64,000 nt of DNA from Deltaproteobacteria bacterium (GTDB lineage: Bacteria > Desulfobacterota > Desulfobacteria > Desulfobacterales > B30-G6). The translations under genes were made by a program, and so were the position numbers. Positions 7,946 to 41,715 of the stretch are shown piece by piece (the stretch's first letter is position 1; each line of letters opens with the position of its first letter). The stretch is taken from assembly GCA_022340465.1 (NCBI GenBank), contig JAJDNW010000003.1, positions 1 through 64,000 on the forward strand. Direction: 5' to 3'. The notes under the pieces were generated by a model, which made no database searches, was not told where the DNA came from, and saw only the letters and a program-made list of their open reading frames with translations.

Positions 7946-8160
7946 GGGAACACCTCCATCAAGAACCGGTCTGTCTTCGATAATCGTTCGGAGAACGCTG
8001 ACCCCAGGGTTGCAACTGTGGGGTTGATGTGTCCTATACCTACTCAATTTAGGCTATAGTATGATCCTTTTAAAAATTCAATTACAGCCGGCCTTCCGGC
8101 TTCATTTTATGGCGTTATTCCTGCAGCCATAAAAATGATCTTGATCTTGGAACGCCGAGA

Positions 8161-25972: not shown

Positions 25973-26236
25973 TTAGTCGCTATCGGGCACTTTTTCACTT
26001 TCCGGTATTTCCTCGTTGGGCGCCCAGGTGTCGAACAGATTGGGCGTTATGGTTTCACCGGGAGTGGCATCGGTGCGCAACCAGACGATGCGGGTATGAC
26101 ACTCCAGGATCTTTTTCCCGAGTTCGTCACGGCGAATGACAAGGGCCCTTTCAGCGGATTTTCTGTCAGTGTGCAGGGACAGGACTTTCTTCTCGCGTTC
26201 TCCGGGGGTAAGCTCGTCATAAATTAATGCAAACAT
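25973..26236 (-). CDS. Small hypothetical protein under a sigma-54 promoter
   Basis: This 87-residue protein, starting MFALIYDELTPGERE, is charged and ends with the acidic segment EEIPESEKVPDSD. I do not recognise a family. The ATG at 26236 is chosen because AAAGGAGGGCG lies just upstream; the longer frame to 26401 would run through the promoter. A strong -24/-12 promoter (26319-26304) and an inverted enhancer-like repeat (26475-26507) precede it, so it is probably part of the regulon of one of the local sigma-54 activators. Confidence 0.7.
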   Translation of the reverse strand: MFALIYDELTPGEREKKVLSLHTDRKSAERALVIRRDELGKKILECHTRIVWLRTDATPGETITPNLFDTWAPNEEIPESEKVPDSD

Positions 26237-26303
26237 AATCGCCCTCCTTTGTGTTGCGTTGATAAACCCAGAAAGAATCTTCTCTGACCTGATAATAGAT
26301 GGT

Positions 26304-26319
26304 TGCACAAACGATGCCA
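26304..26319 (-). promoter_or_regulatory. Sigma-54 (-24/-12) promoter
   Basis: On the minus strand TGGCA, six bases, then GTGCA fits the consensus TGGCA-N6-TTGCW with one change; the GG and GC dinucleotides are 10 bases apart. Transcription would start near 26293, about 57 bp before the ATG at 26236. Confidence 0.7.
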
Positions 26320-26474
26320 GGGAGGCACACAGGTCAACATAGCGGCTGTCTTGAGTGATGATGGCGGCCAGTGCGGTGATCATGGTGTATTTTTCCCCCA
26401 AGGTGCCGTTGTCGCAAACACGCTGCTTGTGGCGCGAAGCGGATCACGAAAAAGATCGCGGTTGTCACCCATAT

Positions 26475-26507: not shown

Positions 26508-26807
26508 TTGACGATGGGAACGGCTGCATGGGCGGACACCGTTTCGGCTCAGGGTAATGAACGGCAGCATTGAAAAGGGGGCTTGGCGGAAAGCCTGGCA
26601 GCGGGATGGCGTGGGTTTAAACCGGAACGCTCATCGACCATGTCTGCCTTGTAACATAGGCAGCAGATGCTCATACGGGGCCGATGTCCGGAAATGCAAA
26701 TCGACCCGGTGGGCCTATTCCCAAGGGGCCGATTTGCTACTCAGGTGGGTAATTATGCATCAAATGGAGGTAATGCCAAGTATAATTCCCAACGTCTGTT
26801 GATGCAA

Positions 26808-27467
26808 TTAGGGTGCCAAGTTCTCAACTGCTTCGCCGAGAAGCCGCTTGAACCGGTCGAGCGTGACTGGGTAGGCCTGCATGGGGATGCCCATCCAGTC
26901 ACAGTATTCCAGGAAGCCTTCGGGATCTTCCGCCATGTATTGATCCAGGTAACCGATGCCGTCCAGAACGATGGCACCACCGCTATGCCTCGGAAAATTT
27001 TCATTGGCGATACCCTTGTCCCAGCCTTTGAACACCTGCTTGCGAAATTTTACCCAGCCCGGCGTCATCCACCACACCGGTTCGCCTCCGGCCATTTCCT
27101 GGGCGATACGCCGGCGCTCCTCTTCCGTGGCGATCATGTCCATGCATTGCGTGGCCTGAATGCGACCCACCCTGGGACCCTGTTCCTTGATAATGGTCTG
27201 CATGAGCCGGGTCGGTTCGTTGACATTGACGTAACAGAATTTTCCGCCGTAAACCACCAGGACTTTTTCAGCCTTCTGCTTGGCTTTGTCGATCATGTTG
27301 ACCAGCTGGCGTTCCAGTTCCGGAATGTCCTGGTGCAGCCCCGGCGTGGTGTAATAGAGGTGGTTCGTGTCCAGGAACCCTTCTTTTTTCAGATGATTCA
27401 GCTCCAGGCTCATCGTCCCGCAGGACACGATGGCGACATTGGCAAAAGAGATCTTTTCCATGTTCAT
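26808..27467 (-). CDS. DUF1638-like protein
   Basis: This 219-residue protein resembles the DUF1638 family, which often occurs near corrinoid methyltransferase genes. Features include an N-terminal VAIVSCGTMSLEL, a GGKFCYVN segment, a QATQCMDMI segment and YCDWMGIPMQAYPV. Cysteines in these four segments could bind a metal or cofactor. AAAAGGAGGCATCC precedes the first ATG. A near-perfect sigma-54 promoter lies at 27544-27529. It follows the second sigma-54 activator gene on the same strand. Function unknown. Confidence 0.75.
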   Translation of the reverse strand: MNMEKISFANVAIVSCGTMSLELNHLKKEGFLDTNHLYYTTPGLHQDIPELERQLVNMIDKAKQKAEKVLVVYGGKFCYVNVNEPTRLMQTIIKEQGPRVGRIQATQCMDMIATEEERRRIAQEMAGGEPVWWMTPGWVKFRKQVFKGWDKGIANENFPRHSGGAIVLDGIGYLDQYMAEDPEGFLEYCDWMGIPMQAYPVTLDRFKRLLGEAVENLAP

Positions 27468-27528: not shown

Positions 27529-27544
27529 AGCAAGATTGGTGCCA
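27529..27544 (-). promoter_or_regulatory. Sigma-54 (-24/-12) promoter
   Basis: On the minus strand TGGCACCAATCTTGCT matches the sigma-54 consensus at every conserved position. Transcription would start near 27518, about 50 bp before the DUF1638-like gene. Confidence 0.82.
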
Positions 27545-27586: not shown

Positions 27587-28954
27587 TTACTTGCCGTTGA
27601 GATTGAAGCGCTTCATTTGGCTCCACACACTCGTCCTGGAGATCCCCAGAATCCTGGCTGCCTCAGATTGGTTCCCCTTTGCACGGTTCAGCGCATCGAC
27701 CAGGCGCTGTTTCTTGATGTCGTCCAGGCTTTGTGCCGGCTCGGCTGCCAGTTCGACCGGGTTGACATCCCGGCTGCCGTCGAATGGAAAGTGTTCGGGC
27801 AGGAGGGTTGGACCGTTGCAGGATACAAAAGCGTACTCGAAGGCGCTCTTAAGCTCGCGCACGTTTCCCGGCCATCTATACTGCATCAGGGACTCGAGGG
27901 CCGTCTTGGATATTTTTTCGATTTTTTTACCGCTTTTCATCTGCATTCTTCTAAAAAAAGTGTCCGCCAGGATGGGAATGTCGCCGAACCGTTCCCGTAG
28001 CGGGGGGACGTGGATGGGAATGACATTGATGCGGTAATAAAAGTCCTCACGGTAGGCGCCTTGTTCCACCAACTGACTCAAATTGCGACTGGTGGCTGAA
28101 ATGATACGGGTGTCGATGTGAATGGGCCGGTTGTCGCCGACACGCTCCACCACCTTTTCCTCCAGCACCCGCAGCAGCTTGATCTGGGTGGACAGCGGCA
28201 GGTCCCCGATTTCATCAAGAAAAAGGTCGCCCCCCTGGGCCGCTTCAAAACGACCCTTACGGGTTTTATGCGCGCCGGTAAAAGCCCCTTTGACGTGGCC
28301 GAACAATTCACTCTCCAAAAGGGACTCGTTCAGGGCGGCGCAATTGACCTTGATATAGGCTGCATCCTTGCGATTTCCACTGTTATGGATGGCTTTGGCC
28401 ACCAGTTCTTTTCCCGTGCCGCTTTCGCCGAAAATAATCACCGGTGCATCCGAGCGGGCAGCATTGGTAATCAGATCGAAGACCCGCTGCATGGCGGCCG
28501 ACGACCCGACCATGCCGTGAAAGCGGTCTTCTGCCTTCAGCTCGCGTCTGAATTTTTCGATCTGGACCTCCTTGTCCATGAGATCGGTTATATCGGTCAT
28601 GGTTTCGACGGCGCCGGCCACGTTGCCTTCCGCGTCAAGCAGCACCGACGCATTTTTCACGACATGAACATACCGGTCGTCTTTGCGCTTTATTACGCAG
28701 GTCTGCTTGCGCAGTTTTTCTTTTTGGAACAACAGGCACCAGTGGTGGCCTTTGTTATTGCGGGCGATTTTACAGGTGTTGCAGTTCAGGATAGAGCAGG
28801 ATGCCCCGATGATCTCATTGCGGATATAGCCGGTAATATTTTCGAAGGCGCGGTTGACCGAGACAATCACGCCATCGGTGTTTACAATCATCACGCCATC
28901 CTGAATCGTGTCGACAACGGTTTTCCAGTATGAATCGAGTTCTTTTTCAAACAT
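27587..28954 (-). CDS. PAS-domain sigma-54 dependent activator
   Basis: This 455-residue activator has an N-terminal PAS domain (about residues 5-125), a sigma-54 AAA+ domain (about 140-375) and a Fis-type helix-turn-helix (AARILGISRTSVWSQMKRF). The AAA+ part shows GESGTGKE, GAFTGA and LDEIGDLPL. The PAS domain contains the Cys/His-rich segment CSILNCNTCK and a later WCLLF, like the Cys cluster of the activator at 21084-22514. The ATG at 28954 is preferred, as GGAGG lies 5 bases upstream and would be inside the longer frame. It is divergent from the hdr-met operon, whose sigma-54 promoter lies at 29138-29153, and is the obvious candidate to activate it. Confidence 0.93.
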   Translation of the reverse strand: MFEKELDSYWKTVVDTIQDGVMIVNTDGVIVSVNRAFENITGYIRNEIIGASCSILNCNTCKIARNNKGHHWCLLFQKEKLRKQTCVIKRKDDRYVHVVKNASVLLDAEGNVAGAVETMTDITDLMDKEVQIEKFRRELKAEDRFHGMVGSSAAMQRVFDLITNAARSDAPVIIFGESGTGKELVAKAIHNSGNRKDAAYIKVNCAALNESLLESELFGHVKGAFTGAHKTRKGRFEAAQGGDLFLDEIGDLPLSTQIKLLRVLEEKVVERVGDNRPIHIDTRIISATSRNLSQLVEQGAYREDFYYRINVIPIHVPPLRERFGDIPILADTFFRRMQMKSGKKIEKISKTALESLMQYRWPGNVRELKSAFEYAFVSCNGPTLLPEHFPFDGSRDVNPVELAAEPAQSLDDIKKQRLVDALNRAKGNQSEAARILGISRTSVWSQMKRFNLNGK

Positions 28955-28978
28955 GGCATCCTCCATATGTTAGAAAAG

Positions 28979-29137: not shown

Positions 29138-29153
29138 TGGCATCCGCATTGCT
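29138..29153 (+). promoter_or_regulatory. Sigma-54 (-24/-12) promoter of the hdr-met operon
   Basis: TGGCATCCGCATTGCT matches TGGCA-N6-TTGCW exactly. Transcription would start near 29164, about 20 bp before the first gene. It probably drives the whole run from 29183 to 38168. Confidence 0.82.
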
Positions 29154-29182: not shown

Positions 29183-29413
29183 ATGCAGATTGATTTAAGA
29201 AACTGGATAATGCCGTTTTCGCTTTTAAAAGGCAGCAACGCTTTCAGGTCGCTTAAGGCGGATGAAACACTCGAACTACTGTGGAGCGACACGCAGAATC
29301 TGAACGACCTGTTAAAGATCATTCCATCCGATCAATGCGAGATCGTTTCGGTGAGAGACTTATCGCCGGACAACCCGGGCATAAGCGTTCGCATGCGCAA
29401 AATGCATAATTAA
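29183..29413 (+). CDS. TusA-like protein lacking the sulfur-carrier cysteine
   Basis: This 76-residue protein has the length and pattern of the TusA/SirA fold: DLRNWIMPFSLLKG at the start, a LKADETLELLW strand region and a C-terminal ISVRMRK strand. In TusA the start carries the active CPxP motif; here the same place reads IMPF, so the sulfur-binding cysteine is absent. The only Cys is in DQCEIVS. It is the first gene after the sigma-54 promoter and directly precedes an intact TusA gene. It may be a scaffolding or regulatory paralogue. The assignment rests on a weak pattern. Confidence 0.6.
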   Translation: MQIDLRNWIMPFSLLKGSNAFRSLKADETLELLWSDTQNLNDLLKIIPSDQCEIVSVRDLSPDNPGISVRMRKMHN

Positions 29414-29433
29414 ATAAGGGAAAGGAGAATATC

Positions 29434-29688
29434 ATGAGCGATGTAGATTTAAGCACGATTGAAATTGCGAGCACCGTCGATGCCAGGGGCAGCGCCTGCC
29501 CCGGCCCCCTGCTGGAGGCCAAGAAAGGGATTGGCAAGGTCAAAGTCGGTGAAATTCTGGAAATTTTTTCCAACGATTCAGGCACCCGCAAAGACATCCC
29601 CGCCTGGTCGAACAAGGTCGGCCACGCTTACCTCGGTGTGCTCGAAGCCGACGGCTATGACAAGCACTATGTCAAACGCAACAAATAA
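29434..29688 (+). CDS. TusA/SirA-family sulfur-carrier protein
   Basis: This 84-residue protein has the TusA motif DARGSACPGPLLEAKKGI with the CPGP sulfur-carrier cysteine, followed by VGEILEIFSND. It has the standard length. TusA proteins carry persulfide sulfur in the cytoplasm and in sulfur-metabolising bacteria feed Hdr-like, Dsr or DsrE partners. AAAGGAGAATATC precedes the ATG. Here it sits with a DsrE-like gene and Hdr/Mvh subunits, so sulfur transfer to a Cys-rich complex is plausible. Confidence 0.92.
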   Translation: MSDVDLSTIEIASTVDARGSACPGPLLEAKKGIGKVKVGEILEIFSNDSGTRKDIPAWSNKVGHAYLGVLEADGYDKHYVKRNK

Positions 29689-29732
29689 CCCGTACGGTGA
29701 TGTTCAGGCCGGTACTTTCACCCGGCCGCATG

Positions 29733-29794
29733 GTGACCACAAAGACACATAGGACGGATGCGGTTTTTTCCCCCGGGTGTCTTTGTGGTCTACC
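29733..29794. repeat. Perfect 14-bp inverted repeat between tusA-like and mvhD-like genes
   Basis: GACCACAAAGACAC and GTGTCTTTGTGGTC face each other across about 28 bp that includes a T-run. It is a strong intercistronic hairpin and could attenuate transcription or protect the downstream messenger. Similar CACAAAG tracts occur at 11599-11622. Confidence 0.6.
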
Positions 29795-29881
29795 ACGTCC
29801 TGAAGAGGAGGCCTTGTTCAGGAAATCCGCTGAACAAGGTGCCCGCAGGCAATTATCCATCAGCAACAGGGCAGGAGAATA

Positions 29882-30310
29882 ATGGCAACGCAAGCAAGCA
29901 GCAAAAAAGAGGGAAAAATCCTCATCCTGGCGACCGAGAACTGTGCCTACCCCGGAGCCAACTCGGTGGGCCAGGCACACTCGAGTTATCCCGCCAACAC
30001 CTATATCATGCGCGTTCGAGCGCCGGTGTTGTTTCCGGAACGGTTTTATCTGGACTGTTTTAAAAAGGGCATTGCCGCCATCATCATCATGTCCTGTGGC
30101 GAAGAATGCCCCTATGAAGGCGCCTATCATGCCCTCGCGAAAAGAATCGACCGCGTCTATGCCATGATGAAGGAGCAGGGGCTGGATATCCGGCGCCTGC
30201 GCCTGACGGCAATCTGCACGGTGTGCAACCGGGCTTTTCTAAAGGAAGTCAACGAGATGAACGCGCTTATCCAGGAGATCGGGCTGCCTGAATTTGAGAA
30301 AGCCGCCTAA
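29882..30310 (+). CDS. MvhD-family [2Fe-2S] electron-transfer subunit
   Basis: This 142-residue protein resembles MvhD, the small iron-sulfur subunit that links a hydrogenase or other oxidoreductase to HdrA. The family cysteines are in TENCAYPGAN, MSCGEECPYEGAY and the C-terminal AICTVCNRAF. GGCAGGAGAATA precedes the ATG. In this operon MvhD, HdrA and MetV/MetF are encoded together, as in the methylene-THF reductase complexes of some acetogens, where MvhD hands electrons to HdrA. No hydrogenase genes are present in the window. Confidence 0.9.
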   Translation: MATQASSKKEGKILILATENCAYPGANSVGQAHSSYPANTYIMRVRAPVLFPERFYLDCFKKGIAAIIIMSCGEECPYEGAYHALAKRIDRVYAMMKEQGLDIRRLRLTAICTVCNRAFLKEVNEMNALIQEIGLPEFEKAA

Positions 30311-30345
30311 TTTTAAAAAGCGTGTTGTCGGATCAGGAGAGATGC

Positions 30346-31656
30346 ATGCAACCCAACCAAGAAATGGAATTTGACGCCATAACGATAGGGGGCGGTATTG
30401 CAGGACTTCAATCCGCCCTGGACCTGGCCGATCAGGGCTACAAAGTGGCGGTAATCGAGAAAGATGCCACCATCGGGGGCAAGATGATTCGCCTTTCCAA
30501 GGTATTCCCAACCTTGGATTGTGCCAGTTGCATCACGACCCCCAAGATGGCAGCAGCCGCACATCATGAAAATATAACCATTTTTACCTGTTGTGAGTTG
30601 AAAAGCCTCGATCGCGAAGGGGAGAAGCTTCTTGTCCGGGTAACCCAGATGCCCCGCTATGTCGACCCTGACAAGTGCATCGGTTGTCGCCAATGTGAAT
30701 ATGGCTGTCCGGTCTATGTCGCGGATGACGAACAGGGGGGGTTCAACATGCGCAAGGCCATCCGGATTCCCTTCTCCAACGCCATCCCCCAGGTCGCTCT
30801 TTTGGATATGGACAACTGTTCCCTCTGCGGCAAGTGCGATCGGGTCTGCCCAACGGACGCGGTCAACTACCTCGATCAGCCTGTTGATTTCGTTATCAAG
30901 TCCCAGAGCGCCGTTCTTACCACCGGTTTCGATTTGACCCCGGCGGAACAAAAGAAAGAGTATGGCGGCGGCCAGATTCAAAATGTGATCACTTCCATGC
31001 AGATGGAACGGTTGCTGGCGCCCCACGGTCCCTACATGCGGGTCCTGCGGCCATCCGACGGCAAGGAACCGGACTCCATTGCCTACATTCAGTGTGCGGG
31101 ATCACGCGACAAGAGCATCGGGATTCCCTATTGCTCCAGGGTTTGCTGCATGTATGCCATCAAACAGGGCATGCTGCTTTCCGGGGCGCTCCCGCTGGCG
31201 GATATTACCATTTACTACATGGATATTCGTGCCTTCGGCAAAGGCTATGAACAGTTTTTCCAGAATGCCAAGGCCATGGGCATCGAGTTCGTGAAAGGCA
31301 AGGTGGCCAAGATCACCCAGGGTGAGAATCAGAATGTCAACCTGCGCTATGAGGCCCAGGAGGACGGCGGCGGGGTGGTTACCCGCGAACACGACCTGGT
31401 GGTTCTCTCACTGGGCATGGTTCCCCAGTGGCATCCGGGGCGTGTGTGTCCGGTTTCAGTGGGTGGTGACGGATTCATCAAAAACATCATGCCCAGGATG
31501 GCACCTGCGCTTACGGATCTGGAGGGGGTGTTCACGGCGGGGGTGGCCTCGGGTCCCAAAGACATCGTGGACACCATTGCCGAGGCCGGCGCCGCTGCCA
31601 TGGAGGCATCGAAATACATGCGGGCTCAAAGCAGCTCATTCGAAAAGGTAGCCTAG
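30346..31656 (+). CDS. HdrA/QmoA-like flavoprotein with two ferredoxin clusters
   Basis: This 436-residue flavoprotein has an N-terminal FAD-binding GGGIAGLQSALDLA. The HdrA Cys motif follows (VFPTLDCASCITTPKM), then two 4Fe-4S groups (CIGCRQCEYGC and CSLCGKCDRVC). A second flavin segment starts at IQCAGSRD and includes CSRVCCMYA. The length is close to QmoA. CAGGAGAG precedes the ATG at 30346; the in-frame start at 30322 lacks a site. With the second HdrA at 31745 and the membrane subunit at 33958 it forms a Qmo-like set that could pass electrons between MvhD/MetV and quinones. Confidence 0.9.
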   Translation: MQPNQEMEFDAITIGGGIAGLQSALDLADQGYKVAVIEKDATIGGKMIRLSKVFPTLDCASCITTPKMAAAAHHENITIFTCCELKSLDREGEKLLVRVTQMPRYVDPDKCIGCRQCEYGCPVYVADDEQGGFNMRKAIRIPFSNAIPQVALLDMDNCSLCGKCDRVCPTDAVNYLDQPVDFVIKSQSAVLTTGFDLTPAEQKKEYGGGQIQNVITSMQMERLLAPHGPYMRVLRPSDGKEPDSIAYIQCAGSRDKSIGIPYCSRVCCMYAIKQGMLLSGALPLADITIYYMDIRAFGKGYEQFFQNAKAMGIEFVKGKVAKITQGENQNVNLRYEAQEDGGGVVTREHDLVVLSLGMVPQWHPGRVCPVSVGGDGFIKNIMPRMAPALTDLEGVFTAGVASGPKDIVDTIAEAGAAAMEASKYMRAQSSSFEKVA

Positions 31657-31744
31657 AAACATAAATCAGCCTCGTACGGGCGGTTGTCGGCTGCAAGGCA
31701 GTTGTGTCGGCCAACAATCGGGAAAAACCATTGGATGTAAAGCC

Positions 31745-33655
31745 ATGACGGACAAAGAGACGGATAAAGAAAAAGAGAGCCAGGACAAAAAAGTCGGCGT
31801 GTACATTTGCCACTGTGGCGGGAATATTTCAGACCATGTGGATGTAGAGGCAGTGGCCGAGAAGGTGAAAAAGCTCCCAGGTGTCGCCAAGGTCCATACC
31901 AATACCTTCATGTGCTCGGATCCGGGGCAGGAGCTTATCCAGAAAGACATCAAGGAGGGCTCCATCGACCGGGTGGTCGTGGCATCGTGTGCCCCCAGCC
32001 TTCACGAGCTCACCTTTCGAGGAGCCATAAAACGGGCGAATTTTAACCCCTACCTCTACGAACATGCCAATATAAGGGAACAGGTCAGCTGGGTTCATCA
32101 CGGAGAAAAGGCCACGGAAAAGGCCGCCTCTCTGGTGGCGGCGGCCGTGGCCAAAACAAAACAATTGACACCCCTGGAACCCATCAGGGTGGATGCCCGG
32201 CGCCACGCAACGGTCATCGGTGGCGGAATAGCCGGTATGCGCGCGGCCATTGACCTGGCCGAGAAAGGGCTCAAGGTAGCCCTCATCGAAAAATCACCCT
32301 TTTTAGGCGGCCGGACGGCCAAACTCGACACCCTTTTTCCCACGGGGGAAAAGGCGGCCGACCTGGTTCGGGCCTTTGCAGATAAAATCGAAGCATCGGC
32401 CGCTATTAGCGTGCACACCTGCGCGCAAATCGTTGAATTCCAGGGGTATGTGGGCAACTTCAACTTGACCGTCAAGCAGGCGCCACCGGTCGTGGAAGAT
32501 GAAGGCGCGGCCAAGATTATCACGGCGGCGGCCAGTGCCGGACCCGGTGACTACGTTCCCTTCGCGGGGTATTTCCCGGAGCCTGTCCCCACGGACGCCA
32601 GGACCACTGCCGTGGAGACCGGGGCGGTCGTATTCGCCACCGGCTTCCATACCTATACGCCCGGCGACGGCGAGTTCGGTTATCTCAAACACCGGCAGGT
32701 GATGACGCTTCCCGAGTTGATAGAGGAGATGGCCAAGAGCGAGGCAGAGGGCAAGTACCTGCAGATCGACGGCAACACGGTTCGTAGCGTCGCCCTGATT
32801 CACTGCGTGGGCAGTCGGCAGATACCCGGCATTCACGAGCCGGATGCAGACGGTAACCTGAACGAATACTGCTCGCGGACGTGCTGTACGGCCACGCTCC
32901 AGGCGGCCGCTGAGATCAAAAAGCACCATCCGGCAACGCAGGTGTTCGAGTTTTACCGGGACATTCGTACCTATGGGCGCGGTCAGGAAGAGATTTATGA
33001 GGAGGCTTCCAACCGCAATGTTTTGTTCTTTCGTTACGAGCCCGAGGACCCGCCGGTGGTCGAAAGGGCTAATCACCGTTCGCATCCGCTGCAGATCAGA
33101 GTCAAGGACACATTGACGTTCGGGGAGGAGGTCATCGCACCGGTCGATCTGGTTGTGCTTTCCGTGGGGATGGAGGCCGGCAACATTAAACAACTGGTGG
33201 AGATGATGAAGCTTCCGGTGGGTGCCGATCGGTTCCTGCAGGAAGTCCATCCCAAGCTGCGGCCCGTGGAACTGGCCAACACCGGAATCCTGCTGGCCGG
33301 CACCTGCCAGGCGCCCATGGATATCGGCGAGGCCTGCGCGGCCGCGCAGGCAGCGGCTGCAAAGGCAGCCACGCTGCTGGATAGGGGATATGCGGAGCTG
33401 GATCCGTTTGTAGCCAGTGTGGATGAGGGGCGGTGCCAGGGGCATGGTGAATGCCGGGAGGTGTGCCCCGTTGAAGGGACGATTGTTCTGGAAGCGGGAG
33501 GGCCCGACGGTGAAGCAAAGAGAGCCCGGGTCAACGCGGCCTTGTGCACTGGATGCGGTATCTGTGTAGCCGCTTGCCCGGAAAACGCCATCAATGTCAA
33601 GGGCTGGACCCTGCAACAATACGAGGCGATGGTGGATGCCATCGTGGCCGCTTAG
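31745..33655 (+). CDS. HdrA-like flavoprotein with C-terminal ferredoxin domain
   Basis: This 636-residue protein has the full HdrA plan. An N-terminal domain opens VGVYICHCGGNI with further Cys in FMCSDPGQ. The FAD site is VIGGGIAGMRAAIDLAEKG near residue 155. The NADH-like part has IHCVGSRQ and CSRTCC, and the C-terminal ferredoxin has two groups (CQGHGECREVC and CTGCGICVAAC). Its flavin-proximal motif reads LDTLFPTGEKA, so it lacks the Cys pair present in the HdrA at 30346. The two proteins may form an asymmetric pair as QmoA and QmoB do. The N-terminal site upstream of the ATG is weak. Confidence 0.9.
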   Translation: MTDKETDKEKESQDKKVGVYICHCGGNISDHVDVEAVAEKVKKLPGVAKVHTNTFMCSDPGQELIQKDIKEGSIDRVVVASCAPSLHELTFRGAIKRANFNPYLYEHANIREQVSWVHHGEKATEKAASLVAAAVAKTKQLTPLEPIRVDARRHATVIGGGIAGMRAAIDLAEKGLKVALIEKSPFLGGRTAKLDTLFPTGEKAADLVRAFADKIEASAAISVHTCAQIVEFQGYVGNFNLTVKQAPPVVEDEGAAKIITAAASAGPGDYVPFAGYFPEPVPTDARTTAVETGAVVFATGFHTYTPGDGEFGYLKHRQVMTLPELIEEMAKSEAEGKYLQIDGNTVRSVALIHCVGSRQIPGIHEPDADGNLNEYCSRTCCTATLQAAAEIKKHHPATQVFEFYRDIRTYGRGQEEIYEEASNRNVLFFRYEPEDPPVVERANHRSHPLQIRVKDTLTFGEEVIAPVDLVVLSVGMEAGNIKQLVEMMKLPVGADRFLQEVHPKLRPVELANTGILLAGTCQAPMDIGEACAAAQAAAAKAATLLDRGYAELDPFVASVDEGRCQGHGECREVCPVEGTIVLEAGGPDGEAKRARVNAALCTGCGICVAACPENAINVKGWTLQQYEAMVDAIVAA

Positions 33656-33666
33656 GGGAGCGTATC

Positions 33667-33936
33667 ATGGGAAACAAAGAAGCACTTAAAAAGCTCCGGC
33701 AGGAAAGATCGGTCTCCGTCGCCGGAGCCAAAGAGCGCATTAAAACGCAAAATAAGCTGATCAAGAAAATAAAGGAACAGATAAAAGACGAAGGACGAAC
33801 CGTTCCCGAGATTGCCGAGGCCATAAACGCTTCGACGTCACAGGTGCTTGTTTTCGTCTCCACGCTGAAAAAATACGGCGAAGTCGTGGAGGATGCCAAG
33901 GACGGCGACTATTTCAAGTATCGGATCGCCGATTGA
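33667..33936 (+). CDS. Small winged-helix-like protein in the hdr-met operon
   Basis: This 89-residue basic protein begins with a lysine/arginine-rich helix. It continues with a winged-helix-like region (TVPEIAEAINASTSQVLVFV), then an acidic end. GGGGAGCGTATC precedes the ATG at 33667; the longer frame overlaps the preceding gene. It sits between the second HdrA and the QmoC-like gene, in the place where accessory proteins of Hdr complexes occur. It could bind DNA or stabilise the complex; no evidence decides. Confidence 0.7.
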   Translation: MGNKEALKKLRQERSVSVAGAKERIKTQNKLIKKIKEQIKDEGRTVPEIAEAINASTSQVLVFVSTLKKYGEVVEDAKDGDYFKYRIAD

Positions 33937-33957
33937 CAGAAAAAGAGGAGAGGATCC

Positions 33958-35121
33958 ATGGGTTCGATAGTCAATCCGGATTTGTTGATTAATTTAAAAA
34001 AATTTGGCGTTGAAGACGCTTCGGCCTGTTTCAACTGCGGGAACTGCACGGCGGTCTGCGAGCTTTCCACCGAATCGACCCCGTTCCCCCGCAAGGTTAT
34101 CCGTTATCTGCAATTGGGCCTGACCGACAAACTGGCCCAGAGCCCGGAACCCTGGCTGTGCTATTACTGCGGTGACTGCACCCAGACCTGTCCACGCCAG
34201 GCCAACCCGGGAGAGGTCATGATGGGGTTGCGGCGCTATCTGACCTCCCGGTACGACTGGACCGGCATCTCACGTCTTTTTTATACATCCAAGGTCTTTG
34301 AAGTCATGTCCATCCTGGTGGTGGCAGCCATGGTCGGACTGGGGTTTTATTTTTTTCACGGCCCCATGCTGACCGACCGGGTCGCCTTGAATGTGTTTGC
34401 CCCCAACACCACCATTGAAATCCTCGACATCATCATGCTGGTCGTGCTTTCCTTTTTCCTGCTCAGCAACGCCTACCGTTTGTTCAAGGGAGTGATGGGC
34501 GATCCGGCCCAGTATCCCGAACTGAGTTTTTCGGAAAAGCAGCAGTTCTCGAACCGCTTGCTCCGGGGCGTTCCCATTCCCATCTACATCAGGGAGTTCA
34601 AAGAGTTCGTTGTCCAATTTATGACCCAGAGGAAGTTTGCTTCCTGCGGCACGCCATCGCAGCGTATGCAGTGGATCGTTCACCTTCTGATCATGACCGG
34701 ATATTCCATCGTATTTTTGCTGGTGGTGGTGGGCATCCGCTGGTTTCAGCGGGATGAGATCTATGCCATCTGGCACCCCATACGGCTGCTTGGGTACTAC
34801 TCCACCTTCGCTATTTTATACGGGGTCACCTACGCCATCATCGGCCGCATCAAGAAGAGCAAGACCGTTTACGAAAATTCCCACTCGTCAGACTGGGCTT
34901 TTCTGATTCTGCTCTGGCTGACAACCTTCACCGGTATTGTCATCCACGCCACCAGACTGCTGGAGATGCCCCTGGCGACCTATTGCATGTATGTGCTCCA
35001 CCTGATGATCGCCGTGCCGATGCTGGTCATCGAGGTGCCTTTCGCCAAATGGACCCATCAGCTTTATCGCCCGCTGGCGCTCTTTCTCATGCGGGTGAAA
35101 CAACGCGCCATGCAAGCTTAG
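33958..35121 (+). CDS. QmoC/HdrE-C-like membrane subunit
   Basis: This 387-residue protein joins an HdrC-like ferredoxin domain (CFNCGNCTAVC and CYYCGDCTQTC, residues about 20-90) to a cytochrome b-like membrane domain with about six hydrophobic segments. Histidines in the segments VHLLIMTGYS, SSDWAF and VLHLMIAV may bind haem. QmoC has this plan and connects QmoAB with the menaquinone pool. AGAGGAGAGGATCC precedes the ATG. Here it would give the HdrA/MvhD/MetVF proteins a route to quinone, which Hdr-type MetVF complexes of acetogens lack. Confidence 0.92.
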   Translation: MGSIVNPDLLINLKKFGVEDASACFNCGNCTAVCELSTESTPFPRKVIRYLQLGLTDKLAQSPEPWLCYYCGDCTQTCPRQANPGEVMMGLRRYLTSRYDWTGISRLFYTSKVFEVMSILVVAAMVGLGFYFFHGPMLTDRVALNVFAPNTTIEILDIIMLVVLSFFLLSNAYRLFKGVMGDPAQYPELSFSEKQQFSNRLLRGVPIPIYIREFKEFVVQFMTQRKFASCGTPSQRMQWIVHLLIMTGYSIVFLLVVVGIRWFQRDEIYAIWHPIRLLGYYSTFAILYGVTYAIIGRIKKSKTVYENSHSSDWAFLILLWLTTFTGIVIHATRLLEMPLATYCMYVLHLMIAVPMLVIEVPFAKWTHQLYRPLALFLMRVKQRAMQA

Positions 35122-35177
35122 CAGATGAAGCTGGCATGCCGCTCAATTTTTAAGGACAAAGAAAAAAGGAAATCAAA

Positions 35178-35552
35178 ATGACCGAAAAACAAGAAAAGAT
35201 CATGTACATTTGCACCCACGCAGGCGAGAACCCCGAGAAGGCGGCCATGCCCTTCGCCATGGCCAATGCGGCCCTGGCCATGGATATTGAAGCGACCGTC
35301 TGTCTCCAGGGCAACGGCGTCTTTCTGGGCCAGAAAGGATATGCCCGTCATCTTCCCAAACCGGGTGGATTCCCGCCCGTCGATGAGCTTATGGCGTCGT
35401 TCAAAGAACTGGGAGGCAGGCTTCTGGTGTGCGTGCCGTGCATAAAAGAGCGCAACATCGATGAGGCCGAACTCGTAGAAGGCTCCCAGACGACGGCCGC
35501 CGGTAAACTGAACCTGGAAGCCATGGAAGCCGATGCCGTATTCGTCTACTAA
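35178..35552 (+). CDS. DsrE-family protein
   Basis: This 124-residue protein has the DsrE/YchN pattern: KIMYICTHAGENPEKAAMPF, then MDIEATVCLQGNGV, then a C-terminal LLVCVPCIKERN with two Cys close together. DsrE-like proteins receive or hand on persulfide sulfur, often from TusA. AAAAAAGGAAATC precedes the ATG. It lies in the same operon as tusA-like genes, which supports a sulfur-relay role, but could also serve a structural or regulatory role for the Hdr complex. Confidence 0.88.
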   Translation: MTEKQEKIMYICTHAGENPEKAAMPFAMANAALAMDIEATVCLQGNGVFLGQKGYARHLPKPGGFPPVDELMASFKELGGRLLVCVPCIKERNIDEAELVEGSQTTAAGKLNLEAMEADAVFVY

Positions 35553-35773
35553 TCACCTATAGTGGTTGCCAGGAAAACGTTCCGCATAGGGCCCATGGCT
35601 GTCCCTGATATTTTCAAGGCGGCATATCGAAAGGATACCTTTTTTGTGCCCATCGGATTGATGATGAATGATAACACCCGAACGCTGCAAAGAGAGATAA
35701 AAAAAGAGAATTCGCTTTGTGGTGCCCCGCTGCAGGGGAATTTTCAACCGGCTCGCCCGGGGAGGAGCACGTG

Positions 35774-36481
35774 ATGAACGATTCGATTTCATCAAGCCAG
35801 CCAAGACGTATAACCGACCTGACCGAACTCGCCCATAAAGGGGCAAGGGTCGAGTGCCGTCCCGTATTTGAGATTCTGCCGGTCGATTTCCATCATCGGG
35901 ACAACCAATTCATGGCCTACATCTTTTTGGCCCGTTACGTAGGTTCGGTGGATGGAGAGGCCTTTACGTTTCGAAAGTGCTATGCCAAAGGTTGCCCGCA
36001 CAATTTATGCATGCACGTGTCGCAGGCAGTGATGATCGCCAACCGGTACTTGCAAAGGGATTATCATCGCCTCAAAGCGGCCGGCATAGCGGTAGGCGAC
36101 CACCTGTTCACTTTGGAAAGCATGGTTGTCAAGTACGACGAGCTGCAGGACGGGGGCGGCCCGATCATGACCATTCACGATTACATCAACCTTGCCAGGG
36201 AAGGCAACCCGGTGTCGGTAGAGGTTGTTTTGGAACAGGTCTCCGCGGTGGAGCATTTTGCCCATGAGGACAATGCCCAGACCTTTCTGAACGGGAATTT
36301 CAAGATAAGCGCCCTCGGTGGCACCGGCAGCTACCAACGCTGTTTCAGCTGCTACCCAACCGACAGTGAAAGCGAGGAAAAAGCGCACGCCATTCACGTG
36401 GCCAACGCCCGCCTGCAGCTGCTTTACGAGGAGCTCGACCAGGCTGCGATTCAACACACCAGACTGTTTTTCAATCAATAA
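35774..36481 (+). CDS. Hypothetical Cys/His-rich protein of the hdr-met operon
   Basis: This 235-residue protein matches no family I recognise. It contains FRKCYAKGCPHNLCMHVSQA near residue 75 (three Cys and two His), and a later pair in YQRCFSCYP near residue 185, which together could bind a metal or an iron-sulfur cluster. GGAGGAGCAC precedes the ATG. It lies between the DsrE-like gene and metV, 11 bp before the latter, so it is likely part of the reductase complex or its assembly. No membrane segment or signal is seen. Confidence 0.75.
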   Translation: MNDSISSSQPRRITDLTELAHKGARVECRPVFEILPVDFHHRDNQFMAYIFLARYVGSVDGEAFTFRKCYAKGCPHNLCMHVSQAVMIANRYLQRDYHRLKAAGIAVGDHLFTLESMVVKYDELQDGGGPIMTIHDYINLAREGNPVSVEVVLEQVSAVEHFAHEDNAQTFLNGNFKISALGGTGSYQRCFSCYPTDSESEEKAHAIHVANARLQLLYEELDQAAIQHTRLFFNQ

Positions 36482-36492
36482 GGAGAAAGTGT

Positions 36493-37212
36493 ATGCATGC
36501 AACCATACAGAAACCGATCGACGAGATTGTCAGCTTTATCAAACCCGGTGAAAAGGTGTTCGTCGTAGGGTGCAACAACTGCGCCTGGAAATGCCACTCC
36601 GGGGGCGAGGACGAAACCAAGGCCATGGCCGCGAGGCTGGAAAGACGAGGTGTCGATGTCGTCGGGTACACGGTGCCCGGCCCCCAGGGAATGAGCCTTT
36701 GCAAGCTGGACCATACGCGCAAGGTCCTGCAGGAAGATTATGTCGACGAGACAAAAAAGGCCGATTCTTTTCTGGTGCTGGGCTGCGGGCAGGGCGTTCA
36801 CACGGTTATCGATGCTACGGACGGCGGTATGATCCACCCGGGATGCGATACCATTTTTGGTGGTGAAACCGTGTCCGAGGACACCATCAGCGAATACTGC
36901 TCCCTTTGCGGTGAATGCGTGATCGAGTTTACCGGCGGGCTGTGCCCCATGACGCTTTGCTCGAAGCAACTGCTCAACGGCCCCTGCGGTGGCGCTGAAA
37001 ACGGCTACTGCGAGGTGGACAAGGAGCGGCCCTGCGGCTGGGTGCTCATCTATGAACGCCTCAAGAAACTGGACCGCCTGGAGATGCTCGACCCCTATCA
37101 GCCGCCCAAAAACAACGCCAAATGGAGTCGGCCGCGGACGCTCAAGGTCAGCCCGACCGAAGCGACCTTCTGCAGCCAGGCGGGTGAGGTGACTGTCAGC
37201 AATCAGGATTAA
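36493..37212 (+). CDS. metV: MetV-type subunit of methylene-THF reductase complex
   Basis: This 239-residue protein resembles MetV, the zinc- or cluster-binding partner of MetF in acetogens and sulfate reducers. Cysteines are in VVGCNNCAWKCHSGG, ISEYCSLCGECVI, GGLCPMTLCSK, NGPCGGAENGYCEV and RPCGW, the last groups being the MetV C-terminal signature. AAGGAGAAAGTGT precedes the ATG. MetV is thought to link MetF to electron donors such as ferredoxin or HdrA-MvhD. It is followed by metF after 56 bp. The gene order fits a multi-subunit complex. Confidence 0.93.
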   Translation: MHATIQKPIDEIVSFIKPGEKVFVVGCNNCAWKCHSGGEDETKAMAARLERRGVDVVGYTVPGPQGMSLCKLDHTRKVLQEDYVDETKKADSFLVLGCGQGVHTVIDATDGGMIHPGCDTIFGGETVSEDTISEYCSLCGECVIEFTGGLCPMTLCSKQLLNGPCGGAENGYCEVDKERPCGWVLIYERLKKLDRLEMLDPYQPPKNNAKWSRPRTLKVSPTEATFCSQAGEVTVSNQD

Positions 37213-37268
37213 CTATTCCCATAATCGCCCGGGGTATAGAAGCGCATACCACACAGGAGAATGCATCA

Positions 37269-38168
37269 ATGAAGATAACCGATCTATTTGAAAAAGGCGA
37301 ATTTGTCGTTACCGGCGAGGTGGGCCCGATCAAGGGCGCGGTGTCCAGAAACAAAAGAATCGATCCGACCTGCGCAAAAGAGGCCTACCAGCTTCAGGAC
37401 CACGTTCACGCCATCAATGTCACCGACAACCAATCGGCCGTTATGCGGCTCGGTTCCCTGGCCGCCAGCGTACGCCTCAAAGAGAGGGGCATCGAGCCGA
37501 TCTACCAGTTGACCTGCCGCGACCGCAACCGCATCGCCCTGCAGAGCGACATTCTGACGGCCTACTCGCTGGGAATCGACAATGTGCTGCTGCTAACCGG
37601 CGACCACATCCAACTGGGGGACCATAAGGAAGCCAAACCGGTATTTGATCTCGATTCGGTCCAACTGATAAAAATGGCCATCGGTTTGAGCGAGGGGCGC
37701 GACATTACGGGGAATCCCATCGAAAATCCGCCCGATTTGGCCTACGGCGCCGTCGTCAACCCCAATTTCGAGCCTTTGGAGCTCCAGTTGATGAAGATGA
37801 AAAAGAAAGTGGATGCAGGCGCTGAATTTTTTCAAACGCAGGCTGTTTATGACGATGCCGTGGTCGATCGCTTCGTTGAACAGGCCGAGAAGCTCAACTG
37901 TCCCGTTCAAATGGGCGTCGTCGTGTTAAAGTCCCCTCAAATGGGAAATTTCATGAATAAGAACGTTTCCGGTATTACCGTTCCAGAGAATTGGATCGAA
38001 GAGATCGGGTCGGTCGACAGGGCCGACAGAAAGAAAAAGGCCGCCGAAATGATGGGTCGTTTTATCAAAAAGCACAAACACAAGTTCCAAGGCGTGCACA
38101 TCATGCCCCTGGGATGGACGGATGTGGTGCCGCAAATTATTTCCCAAGCTGAAATTGACGCCGTTTAA
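37269..38168 (+). CDS. metF: Methylenetetrahydrofolate reductase
   Basis: This 299-residue flavoprotein interconverts methylene-THF and methyl-THF. MetF-family features include VTGEVGPIKG at the start, HAINVTDNQSAVMRLGS, QLTCRDRNRIALQSD, LLLTGDH, and the barrel segment AEFFQTQAVYDD. ACAGGAGAATGCATCA precedes the ATG. In a cell that demethylates amines, the likely direction is oxidation of methyl-THF, with electrons passed through MetV, MvhD and the HdrA pair to quinone. The direction is inferred from context. It ends the operon; a strong hairpin follows. Confidence 0.95.
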   Translation: MKITDLFEKGEFVVTGEVGPIKGAVSRNKRIDPTCAKEAYQLQDHVHAINVTDNQSAVMRLGSLAASVRLKERGIEPIYQLTCRDRNRIALQSDILTAYSLGIDNVLLLTGDHIQLGDHKEAKPVFDLDSVQLIKMAIGLSEGRDITGNPIENPPDLAYGAVVNPNFEPLELQLMKMKKKVDAGAEFFQTQAVYDDAVVDRFVEQAEKLNCPVQMGVVVLKSPQMGNFMNKNVSGITVPENWIEEIGSVDRADRKKKAAEMMGRFIKKHKHKFQGVHIMPLGWTDVVPQIISQAEIDAV

Positions 38169-38398: not shown

Positions 38399-40759
38399 TT
38401 AGAATTCTTTTTGGGCCGTGCGTTCGATGATCTCCTGCTGGTGGTACTTGTCCAGGTCCACGAAGTAGTCGCTGTAGCCGGCCACGCGCACCAGGAGGTC
38501 GGTGTAGTCTTCGGGAACGGCCTGGGCCTTTTTCAGGGTTTCCGTGTCCACGATGTTGAACTGGATGTGGTGACCGTTAAGCCTGAAGTAGGTGCGGATG
38601 AGATGCACCAGCTTGTCCAGATCCGTTTCGGTTTTGAGAACGTCCGGCAGGAAACGCTGGTTTAAAAGGGTGCCGCCGGATTTGATCTGGTCCATTTTTC
38701 CCAGGGATTTTACCACGGCCGTAGGCCCGTTGCGGTCGGCGCCGTGGGACGGCGACGTACCGTCGGAGATGGGCATCCCTGCAAGGCGTCCGTTGGGCGT
38801 GGCCCCCAGCATCCTGCCGAAGTAGATGTGACAGGTGGTGGAGAGCATGTTCAGGTGATACCCACTTCCCTTGGTGTTGGGTTTTCCGTCGATGGCGTCG
38901 AAAAGGGAGGCGTAAACCCGCTGCATCAGGTTGTCGGCGTAGTCATCGTCATTACCGAAAAAGGGGGTCTTGTTCCAGAGCTTGAGACGCAGGGCCTCTT
39001 CGTTTTTAAAGTCGGCTTTCAAACCTTCGAGCAGCGTTGCCATGCTGATGGTCTGTTCCTCGAAAACGTGCTTTTTCAAGGCCGACAGGCTGTCGGTGAT
39101 GGTGCCGATGCCGCAGCACTGGATGTAATTGGTGTTGTAGCGCGGCCCACCGTCGTAATAGTCCCGTCCCTTTTTGATGCAGTCCTGGATGACCACGGAC
39201 AGAAAGGGCGCCGGGGCATGTTCGGCGAACATCCGCTCTATGTAGTTGTTGACGCGTATTTTCAGATCGACGACGTGGTTAAGCTGCGTGACGAAGGCCT
39301 GATAAAGCGTATCGAAGCTGTCAAAGGTCAGCGGATTCCCGGTTGCTGGCCCCAGGCGTTCACCCGACAGGGGGTCGATGCCGTTGTTCAGCGCCAGCTC
39401 GAGAACTTTCGGCACGTTCAGGTAGCCCGTCAGGATGTAAGCTTCCTTGCCGAAGGCGCCGGTTTCTATGCAACCGCTGCATCCTCCCTCCCTTGCGTCC
39501 TCGATACTTTTTCCCACCCGGAGCTGTTCCATGATCACTTCATCGGCATTGAACACGGAAGGGTACCCGTAGCCTTTGCGGATGACCCGGCAGGCGGCCT
39601 TGAGGAAACGGTTTGGTGTTTTGTCGCTGATCTGCACATTGCTCTGGGGCTGGAGCAGGTGGAGTTCGTCGATCACCTCCAGGATGATGTAGGACAGCTT
39701 GTTGACCGCGTCCGTGCCATCGGGCTTAAGTCCCCCCAGGTTTATGTTGGTGAAATCGTTGTAGGTACCGCTTTCCTTGGCCGTTACCCCGACCTTGGGC
39801 GGTGCCGGGTGGTTGTTGACCTTGATCCACAGGCAGCTGATCAGTTCCTTGGCGCGCTCCCTGTCGAGCGTGCCGTCGTCGCGGTCCTTTTGATAGAACG
39901 GCATGAGGTGCTGGTCCAGGCGCCCGGGATTCATGGCGTCCCAGCCGTTGAGTTCCGTGATGGTGCCCAGGTGGACGAACCAGTACATCTGGATGGCTTC
40001 CCAAAGGTTCTCCGGCGCATGGGCCGGCACACGGCGGCAGACGGCGGCGATGGCCTCGAGTTCCTTTTTGCGCTCAGGGTCCTCTTCCCGTGCTGCCATG
40101 GACAGCGCCAGGTCGGCATGCCGCTCGGCGAACAGAATGGCCGCATCGCAGGCGATCTCCATGGCCTTCAGGTTTTCCGCCTTTTGGGTGGCCGTTCTGT
40201 CGGCAAGGTAATCCAGCGCTTCGACGGCCAGGGCGATCTCCTTTTTAAAATCGAGCATGCCCTTTCTGTAAATGGTTCCGTCCAGGGTGGTGTGGCCGGC
40301 CGCACGTTGTTCCATGAACTCGGTGAAAAGCCCCGCCCGGTAGGCTTTTTCCCAGATGGCGGGTACGTGGCCGAAGACCCTGTCCCGCATGCTTCTTCCC
40401 TTCCAGAAGGGAACGACCTCCCTGTCATAACGATCGGTCTCCTCGTCGGAAATGCGAAAACGGGTCATGGGCCGTTCGTTGAGTATGCGCAAATCTTCAG
40501 CCGAGTGGCAGGTCAGTTCCGGAAAGGTTGAAACGGCCTTGGGAAAGGGGCCCCGTTCGCCCACGATCAGTTCGTCTTTGCCGATGTAGATGGTTTTTTT
40601 GGCGCAGAGCTCCCTGAAGACCAGGGCGCGCATCACGGGCGTCGAGTGTTTGCCCAGGTTGTCTTTGTAAAATTCGGTTTCTATCAGCGCCCTTTCGATG
40701 GAGATGCTGGGCACGGCTTCGAAGCTTTCCTTGCGGAGTCGCTGGATACGTGCATTCAT
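38399..40759 (-). CDS. Glycyl-radical enzyme, HypD (hydroxyproline dehydratase)-like
   Basis: This 786-residue protein has the glycyl-radical motif RVAGYSDYF with the radical Gly near residue 761. The active-site cysteine lies in the segment GGCSGCIETGAFGKEAY. As far as I recall that family, its sequence tracks trans-4-hydroxyproline dehydratase (HypD) over its length, including FTEFMEQRAAGHT, QMYWFVHLG and NVQIS. The ATG at 40759 is preferred over TTG 40768, with GGGAGG upstream. It is 5 bp after the activase gene. HypD makes pyrroline-5-carboxylate from hydroxyproline; a closely related substrate is possible. No proC gene is seen in the window. Isethionate or choline lyase type is less likely. 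Confidence 0.85.
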   Translation of the reverse strand: MNARIQRLRKESFEAVPSISIERALIETEFYKDNLGKHSTPVMRALVFRELCAKKTIYIGKDELIVGERGPFPKAVSTFPELTCHSAEDLRILNERPMTRFRISDEETDRYDREVVPFWKGRSMRDRVFGHVPAIWEKAYRAGLFTEFMEQRAAGHTTLDGTIYRKGMLDFKKEIALAVEALDYLADRTATQKAENLKAMEIACDAAILFAERHADLALSMAAREEDPERKKELEAIAAVCRRVPAHAPENLWEAIQMYWFVHLGTITELNGWDAMNPGRLDQHLMPFYQKDRDDGTLDRERAKELISCLWIKVNNHPAPPKVGVTAKESGTYNDFTNINLGGLKPDGTDAVNKLSYIILEVIDELHLLQPQSNVQISDKTPNRFLKAACRVIRKGYGYPSVFNADEVIMEQLRVGKSIEDAREGGCSGCIETGAFGKEAYILTGYLNVPKVLELALNNGIDPLSGERLGPATGNPLTFDSFDTLYQAFVTQLNHVVDLKIRVNNYIERMFAEHAPAPFLSVVIQDCIKKGRDYYDGGPRYNTNYIQCCGIGTITDSLSALKKHVFEEQTISMATLLEGLKADFKNEEALRLKLWNKTPFFGNDDDYADNLMQRVYASLFDAIDGKPNTKGSGYHLNMLSTTCHIYFGRMLGATPNGRLAGMPISDGTSPSHGADRNGPTAVVKSLGKMDQIKSGGTLLNQRFLPDVLKTETDLDKLVHLIRTYFRLNGHHIQFNIVDTETLKKAQAVPEDYTDLLVRVAGYSDYFVDLDKYHQQEIIERTAQKEF

Positions 40760-40764
40760 TATGG

Positions 40765-41715
40765 TCAACCTCCCACTTCGACCGTCAGTCCCGCGGCCCT
40801 GAACCGCTGCTCGATAACCCGGACGCTTTCGGTTGAGGGCGGCCTGACGTCATCGAGGTCATAGATCATCGAGAATGTTGTATACTTGCGTTTTTGAAAG
40901 TCGTGATACGGTAAAATATGCACCATTGGCACCCGTGGCAAGTGGCTCAGATGGGCAATGAATGCGTCGATGTCATCGTCGCGGTCATTGATGCCGGGAA
41001 TCAGAGGGATGCGGACGCCGATCCGGATGCCGTACCGGGAGAGGGCATCGAGATTTTTCAGGATCAATGCATTGGATACGCCGGTGTAACGCCGGTGCTT
41101 GGCCGGGTCCATGCATTTCAGATCGTACAGAAAAAGGTCGGTGTGCCGTGCGATCTGCATCAGGGTGTCCGTGTCCGCATATCCCGTGGTGTCAACGGCC
41201 CGGTGAATCTCCTCGCGGCCGCAGGCTTGAAGCAGCGCCAGAAGAAATTCGGGCTGCATCAACGGTTCGCCGCCGGAAAAGGTGGCCCCGCCGCCGGACG
41301 TGTCGAAAAAAGGGACATCTTTTTTGATGATGTCGAGCACTTCCCGGACGCTTGCTATTTTCCCCACGAGTTCGCGGGCATCCGCCGGGCAGGCTTTGGA
41401 ACAAGCGCCGCAATGCCGACAGCGCGTCTCGTCCGTGCGGACGCCCTCCGGGGTGAGGGCAAGCGCCTTTTCCGGACAGGCGTCGATGCATTCCCCGCAC
41501 CCGATGCAGCGGTCTTGCCGGTAGGCCACTTGCGGTACCCTGTCGAGGCCCTCGGGGTTGTGGCACCAGGGGCATCTCAACGGACAACCCTTGAAGAAGA
41601 CGGTCGTCCGGATGCCGGGACCGTCGTGGATGGCGTAGCGTTTGATGTCGAAGATGATGCCGGTCTGCATGGGTTGGGTGTTACCGCTTCTTTCATTAGA
41701 AACCGTCTGCTGCAT
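40765..41715 (-). CDS. Glycyl-radical enzyme activase (radical SAM)
   Basis: This 316-residue activase has the radical-SAM cluster motif in FKGCPLRCPWCHNPEG (CxxxCxxC). An inserted ferredoxin domain carries two groups (CIGCGECIDAC and CRHCGACSKAC). This is the plan of activases for HypD- and CutC-type enzymes. It uses S-adenosylmethionine and an electron to create the glycyl radical in the adjacent enzyme, which follows 5 bp downstream. The start is uncertain: ATG at 41715 or at 41670, neither with a clear ribosome site; homology begins near residue 17. Confidence 0.92.
   Translation of the reverse strand: MQQTVSNERSGNTQPMQTGIIFDIKRYAIHDGPGIRTTVFFKGCPLRCPWCHNPEGLDRVPQVAYRQDRCIGCGECIDACPEKALALTPEGVRTDETRCRHCGACSKACPADARELVGKIASVREVLDIIKKDVPFFDTSGGGATFSGGEPLMQPEFLLALLQACGREEIHRAVDTTGYADTDTLMQIARHTDLFLYDLKCMDPAKHRRYTGVSNALILKNLDALSRYGIRIGVRIPLIPGINDRDDDIDAFIAHLSHLPRVPMVHILPYHDFQKRKYTTFSMIYDLDDVRPPSTESVRVIEQRFRAAGLTVEVGG

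Follow-up and report, generated by a model that had tools for sequence, protein, structure and literature searches.

A TusA/DsrE-linked Qmo/Hdr operon with an optional MetVF module in a member of the Desulfobacterales

We have analysed a 64,000-nucleotide stretch of DNA (the window: positions 1 to 64,000 of contig JAJDNW010000003.1, here C3, of assembly GCA_022340465.1) from a Deltaproteobacteria bacterium of the order Desulfobacterales, whose genome is 4.39 Mb in size and 95% complete. The subject of this report is an operon at positions 29183–38168, with all genes on the plus strand. An initial annotation had described it as a methylene-tetrahydrofolate (methylene-THF) reductase operon, in which FlpD (MvhD), two HdrA-like flavoproteins, a QmoC-like membrane subunit, MetV and MetF are encoded behind one sigma-54 promoter. 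Profile matches placed all six proteins where that annotation had put them, but its list of parts was incomplete, since it left out a TusA sulfur carrier, a TusA-like protein lacking the catalytic cysteine, a small winged-helix-like protein, a DsrE-family sulfur transferase, and a cysteine-rich protein that we refer to as Hyp254. We found the same gene order in independent assemblies, one of which is the closed chromosome of the cultured Desulfosarcina widdelii PP31 (locus L055, an HdrBC variant with MetVF), and the operon is therefore not an assembly artefact.

The first gene of the operon encodes the Cys-less TusA-like protein (sm77; 29183–29413), which has a TusA fold without the catalytic cysteine. 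Its match to PF01206 (E 1.4e-4) falls below the cut-off and the Cys of the CPxP motif is absent in alignment with TusA, so that by neither property does it count as a TusA. The second gene (29434–29688) encodes a TusA proper, with 67 bits to PF01206, above the cut-off, and the catalytic Cys in a CPGP motif; the Cys and the motif are at least 97% conserved over 63 loci. Further downstream lies the gene for the DsrE-family sulfur transferase (35178–35552; PF02635, 63 bits), of which C85 and C88 are at least 97% conserved over 35 loci. The winged-helix-like protein (33667–33936) has a conserved position in the cluster and matched no family above cut-off in profile searches. Hyp254 (about 35774–36481) is a Cys-rich protein of two repeats with invariant Cys and His residues in a Cx4Cx4CxH ... 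CxxC arrangement, and it had no match in Pfam and no sequence match in the PDB. An AlphaFold2 model of fair confidence (pLDDT, the predicted local distance difference test score, of 83) predicts two helix-three-strand-helix repeats, for which a fold search against solved structures returned nothing convincing (Foldseek best E 0.012; VIA Z at most 3.4). We also considered a kinship of Hyp254 to the hypothetical proteins of YTD clusters, and abandoned the idea when the contexts of single-domain Hyp254 homologues gave it no support.

Between the two sulfur-carrier genes lie those for the redox subunits. The first of these (29882–30310; PF02662, 70 bits) is a variant of FlpD/MvhD with rearranged cysteines, here called FlpD-S. 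Relative to the other FlpD proteins of the source genome, FlpD-S has lost the first Cys of the CxxC motif and the later Cys of the CSG motif, and has gained a new CxxC near its C terminus; C21, C72, C112 and C115 are conserved in the window and the 57 related loci described below. With this pattern, FlpD-S may bind another cofactor or have a persulfide site, and electrons or sulfur may pass through it along a new path. The QmoA-like HdrA protein (30322–31656; NF040770 [HdrA2], 452 bits) has kept the HdrA cysteines and contains an inserted ferredoxin domain for two [4Fe-4S] clusters, the cluster cysteines being conserved. The QmoB-like protein of 636 aa (31745–33655; NF040770, 508 bits) consists of an N-terminal HdrA portion and a C-terminal ferredoxin domain, with conserved cluster cysteines in both, and is without an MvhD-like domain. 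In the QmoC-like subunit (33958–35121; NF038018, E 1.4e-58), an HdrC ferredoxin domain is fused to a cytochrome b-type membrane domain. It scores 199 bits, below the curated NCBIfam cut-off of 300, whereas the canonical QmoC of the same genome scores 496. All eight cluster cysteines of its two [4Fe-4S] motifs are kept, as are conserved His residues, three of them common to canonical QmoC, and the designation as a QmoC-like membrane subunit can stand. The last two genes encode MetV (36493–37212; PF12225, 110 bits), of a cluster-specific subfamily, and MetF (37269–38168; PF02219, 105 bits), the catalytic subunit of methylene-THF reductase.

Like the QmoABC complex linked to aprBA, this set of proteins includes two HdrA-like flavoproteins and an HdrC-cytochrome b fusion, and the presence of a QmoC-like subunit would also fit a second Qmo complex serving adenylylsulfate reductase, a case that the initial annotation had itself allowed for. 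We disfavour this explanation and consider it very improbable. A sat-aprBA-qmoABC locus, recognised by sequence reading and homology to the Qmo-like genes, lies elsewhere in the genome, on contig C33, and because of this separate QmoABC the copy in the window is unlikely to be an Apr partner; its score is also far below that of the canonical QmoC. Moreover, the window has no apr genes within the operon or next to it, the QmoB architecture differs, FlpD is encoded by a separate gene rather than fused to QmoB, and the operon is tied to TusA and DsrE instead of Apr. Judged from hidden Markov model (HMM) scores, the closer likeness may be to the type II QmoABC of Ammonifex and Vulcanisaeta, whose QmoAB are nearer to HdrA than those of type I (PMC10504309); in the sections of that paper drawn on here, no link of type II QmoABC to MetVF, TusA or DsrE is reported.

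Upstream of the operon we found an exact match to the sigma-54 (-24/-12) consensus, TGGCAT-N5-TTGCT (TGGCATCCGCATTGCT; 29138–29153, plus strand). Allowing for up to one mismatch, the site is present in 24/37 orthologous intergenic regions as compared with 0.5% of shuffled sequences, so the match is not due to chance and the sigma-54 promoter of the initial annotation stands. No terminator-like sites were found on the plus strand in the gaps between the operon genes. Divergent from the operon is a gene for a regulator with PAS, sigma-54-activator and Fis-type domains (27587–28966, minus strand; PF00158, 236 bits; PAS; HTH_8), a homologue of which is close to the cluster in 47 of the 57 loci.

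The initial annotation had proposed a survey of genomes for the same gene order. With an alignment of three FlpD proteins as query, we retrieved 57 loci from named genomes, almost all of them belonging to Desulfobacterota. The core order does recur in these loci, as regulator / Cys-less TusA-TusA-FlpD-HdrA-like-HdrA-like-winged-helix-C module-DsrE-Hyp, where the C module is either a QmoC-like fusion, as in the window, or a soluble HdrC together with a CCG-type HdrB. TusA stands beside FlpD in 56/57 loci, and some loci carry in addition DsrE2, a second DsrE, or a fusion of CoA-disulfide reductase with rhodanese. Of the 389 genomes sampled from the order, 60 (about 15%) have the same FlpD, and the core occurs in the sulfur-disproportionating genus Desulfocapsa. 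On a tree of FlpD and both HdrA-like proteins, the distribution of C modules can be explained by three changes, and the main QmoC clade includes the window; exchange of QmoC for HdrBC is also reported for Apr-linked Qmo (PMC10504309). The conserved unit is thus TusA-FlpD-HdrA-HdrA-DsrE plus a C module, a combination that we did not find described within the open-licence literature. The plainest reading of the core, judged from its partner genes, is that it has a sulfur-carrier function.

MetVF, by contrast with TusA and DsrE, is not constant. Among the 16 FlpD-anchored loci that have Hyp and enough downstream sequence, it is present in 7 (including one decayed copy, in L054) and absent from 9, and further closed or long contigs carry the cluster without it. 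MetVF as an obligate part can be dismissed on the strength of these loci. Remnants lie directly after Hyp254 at L054 (16426–16916) and L198 (9444–9925), in which MetV is reduced to 43 aa and MetF is damaged; here MetVF is seen in the course of being lost. That the core is widespread without MetVF does not sustain the name of methylene-THF reductase operon, and a quinone subunit is not what defines the association, since MetVF also occurs where HdrB and HdrC replace QmoC. It follows that a quinone-type subunit is not what keeps MetVF at the cluster.

These observations bear on an explanation close to the original proposal, namely that the operon encodes mainly a quinone-linked methylene-THF reductase complex to which the sulfur carriers are incidental. 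MetVF, FlpD, two HdrA-like proteins and a QmoC-like protein do share one operon, and quinone-dependent methylene-THF reductase activity has been observed in Thermacetogenium phaeum (PMC6895022). Nevertheless, MetVF is less consistently present than TusA and DsrE, and the QmoC-like subunit can be swapped for HdrBC in MetVF loci, and we regard this explanation as unlikely.

Two relatives that lack MetVF might suggest that it is a chance neighbour. A reverse search, the stronger of the two tests, disposed of that idea. When 389 genomes were searched with MetV, 27 of them (that of the window included) had a MetV at least 64% identical, after which identities dropped to about 43% and below. This MetV subfamily lies directly downstream of DsrE/Hyp in 23 of the 27 genomes and beside a homologous sigma-54 regulator in the other 4, which places MetVF in the regulon, as first annotated. 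The genes are likewise placed in three genomes whose MetV is of another clade but whose MetF is related. The MetV subfamily and FlpD-S co-occur in 22/27 genomes (Fisher p 1.5e-15, uncorrected for kinship), and Hyp and MetV are separated by 11–37 bp in about half of the loci. On the core tree, MetVF presence or absence requires at least 7 changes, with MetVF found in both the QmoC and HdrBC clades. In approximately unbiased (AU) tests, a single clade of QmoC-linked MetVF was not rejected (p 0.16), and a single clade of HdrBC-linked MetVF was weakly rejected (p 0.016–0.018, the groups having been chosen in part after the tree was seen). In the aggregate, MetVF is an optional but specific member of this type of operon.

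A second MetVF cluster in the source genome was also observed, on contig C127 (L041, 5392–14861), in the order regulator / Cys-less TusA-HdrC-HdrA-FlpD-MetVF, with an extra MetF-like gene and an HdrA of 1021 aa. Its sigma-54 regulator is 63% identical to that of the window, and this same kind of regulator ties the regulon to MetVF chemistry a second time. Two genes near the window operon are probably in its regulon as well, because each has its own exact sigma-54 site and its family recurs near the cluster elsewhere: one for a DUF1638 protein (26808–27467, minus strand; PF07796, 80 bits; site at 27529–27544, minus strand), found close to the cluster in 5 other loci, and one for a 142-aa protein (25973–26401, minus strand; site at 26803–26818, minus strand), with homologues at 8 related loci. 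At L154, a DUF1638 gene (7343–7990) is located inside the cluster, between HdrB and DsrE.

Shared regulation might in fact be all that unites the two parts. According to this explanation, the TusA/DsrE-Qmo/Hdr core would be a persulfide or thiol:quinone oxidoreductase, and MetVF a separate enzyme, for example a ferredoxin-dependent one, that answers to the same sigma-54 signal. We consider this the less probable account, though a serious one: the core is widespread without MetVF, in 4/27 genomes MetVF adjoins a regulator of this kind without the core, and ferredoxin-dependent MetVF is known (PMC9430772, PMC8515935). Its weakness is that it leaves aside the position of MetVF after DsrE/Hyp in the 23 other genomes, in QmoC and HdrBC clades alike, and the known contacts of MetVF with Hdr and MvhD proteins in Sporomusa ovata.

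The closest described counterpart of the whole operon is the Hdr-type methylene-THF reductase (HdrCBA-MvhD-MetVF) of Moorella thermoacetica and S. ovata, in which metVF likewise lies next to hdrA and mvhD. Its set of redox subunits is almost identical to that of the HdrBC relatives of the window operon. A quinone link of Hdr-type MetVF was proposed earlier for T. phaeum (PMC6895022) and S. ovata (PMC9430772); in S. ovata, MetVF contacts HdrA, HdrB and MvhD and a partial membrane association was demonstrated, although no membrane-integral partner was identified (PMC9430772). The window operon differs in that it encodes a membrane subunit, adds TusA, DsrE, the Cys-less TusA, Hyp254 and the winged-helix-like protein, and has its HdrA as two proteins. 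It also lacks hdrB and hdrC (a QmoC-like fusion is present instead, and no CCG protein), which relatives such as L055 do have, and two of the canonical MvhD cluster cysteines are lost while a CxxC is gained. The system would function as an Hdr-type methylene-THF reductase does, with a Qmo-like membrane module attached to it. Since it departs from both families, from the one in HdrBC and the MvhD cysteines and from the other in the QmoC cut-off, the fused QmoB and the apr linkage, we prefer to call it a Qmo/Hdr complex linked to TusA/DsrE, with MetVF as an optional module. TusA and DsrE also occur together in Desulfobacterota in the YTD / DsrEFH type II cluster (PMC13293266, PMC12998232); among the genes of the window operon, in contrast, there are one DsrE, no YeeE/YedE and no three-gene dsrEFH, with an Hdr/Qmo core instead.

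We propose that the operon encodes a sulfur-carrier-linked Qmo/Hdr complex into which MetVF has repeatedly been plugged, so that electrons from methyl-THF enter it; we rate the chances of this reading, taken as a whole, as about even. What the analysis establishes are the gene content, the promoter, the conservation, the specific though optional presence of MetVF, the swap between QmoC-like and HdrBC modules and the altered FlpD; we infer a physical complex, the flow of electrons and its direction, quinone reduction and sulfur chemistry. The two HdrA-like flavoproteins and FlpD would form a cytoplasmic core, and the QmoC-like protein would carry electrons between the iron-sulfur clusters of this core and menaquinone. 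TusA and DsrE, as the constant partners, would offer sulfane sulfur or a thiol to the complex. MetVF would dock on the HdrA/FlpD core, so that methyl-THF electrons go in at about -200 mV and leave to menaquinone, some of them possibly to the sulfur carrier or to ferredoxin. The potential of menaquinone is about -74 mV. With the methyl-THF/methylene-THF couple at about -200 mV (PMC6895022), transfer from methyl-THF to menaquinone is downhill, so that the quinone pool could take up electrons from methyl-THF oxidation, whereas the reverse direction, from quinol to methylene-THF, is not feasible without another driver. In the source organism, methyl-THF electrons probably reach menaquinone, by what would be a direct transfer.

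The reverse direction is at issue in a further explanation, modelled on the sHdr sulfur-oxidising complex, in which Hdr subunits are likewise encoded with TusA and DsrE. Here the core would oxidise TusA/DsrE-bound sulfane sulfur and pass the electrons to menaquinone, with MetVF working reductively on a part of them. The sulfur-carrier partners and the presence of the core in sulfur-disproportionating genera such as Desulfocapsa are in keeping with it. We nonetheless find it improbable, given that the step from quinol to methylene-THF is uphill, that the window has no CCG-type HdrB (the HdrBC relatives have one), and that no lipoate-binding protein, an sHdr trait, was recognised among the genes of the operon, the flanking genes not having been scanned systematically. 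Sigma-54 regulation and MetVF further set the operon apart from sHdr.

Returning to the proposed entry of methyl-THF electrons into a sulfur-carrier-linked complex, several observations weigh against it. Most clusters are without MetVF, which is therefore not needed for the function of the core; its co-localisation with the core may reflect co-regulation only; and the combinations of MetVF with a QmoC-like subunit are known only from metagenome assemblies. In addition, S. ovata MetVF did not co-purify with Hdr proteins and required ferredoxin (PMC9430772), and the usual electron path of FlpD may be altered in FlpD-S, which is without two of the canonical cluster cysteines.

A more elaborate version can be put forward as speculation. 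By our calculation, the energy balance would come out even if methyl-THF electrons were divided between menaquinone and a second acceptor with a potential of about -320 mV or higher, a role that NAD+ or sulfane sulfur could fill. The operon might then encode a respiratory bifurcating complex, whose HdrA core splits methyl-THF electrons between menaquinone, by way of the QmoC-like subunit, and TusA/DsrE-bound sulfane sulfur, NAD+ or ferredoxin. In such a complex FlpD-S would bear a remodelled site for a cofactor or persulfide, and a single enzyme would couple C1 oxidation with sulfur trafficking and the quinone pool. We hold this to be a doubtful extension of the proposal.

The genetic setting can be summarized as follows. 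DsrA, the sat-aprBA-qmoABC locus and an acetyl-CoA synthase (CdhC family; carbon monoxide dehydrogenase/acetyl-CoA synthase) are encoded in the source genome, which makes the organism a sulfate reducer with a pathway of the Wood-Ljungdahl type. Also in the window are genes for two MttB-family methyltransferases, a corrinoid protein, a uroporphyrinogen decarboxylase (URO-D)-type methyltransferase and a RACo activator, a set that fits a demethylating life style. This setting speaks for the proposed reading of the operon. Convergent to the operon, at 38399–41715 on the minus strand, are genes for a glycyl radical enzyme similar to pyruvate formate-lyase and its radical S-adenosylmethionine activase. 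There are eleven FlpD/MvhD matches in the source genome, five of which have an in-frame TGA within the matched stretch that possibly encodes selenocysteine in CxxC or GC motifs.

It has yet to be explained how methyl-oxidising bacteria feed the electrons of methyl-THF, at about -200 mV, into respiration. The idea of a quinone-linked MetVF is not new; what appear to be new are a membrane partner encoded in the same operon, for which the QmoC-like protein is a candidate, and the link to sulfur carriers. The constant TusA and DsrE point to an undescribed sulfur-linked Hdr/Qmo enzyme in about 15% of the sampled genomes of the order, its carriers including cultured sulfate reducers. The operon suggests that, in sulfate reducers, electrons can pass directly among one-carbon metabolism, sulfur handling and the respiratory chain.

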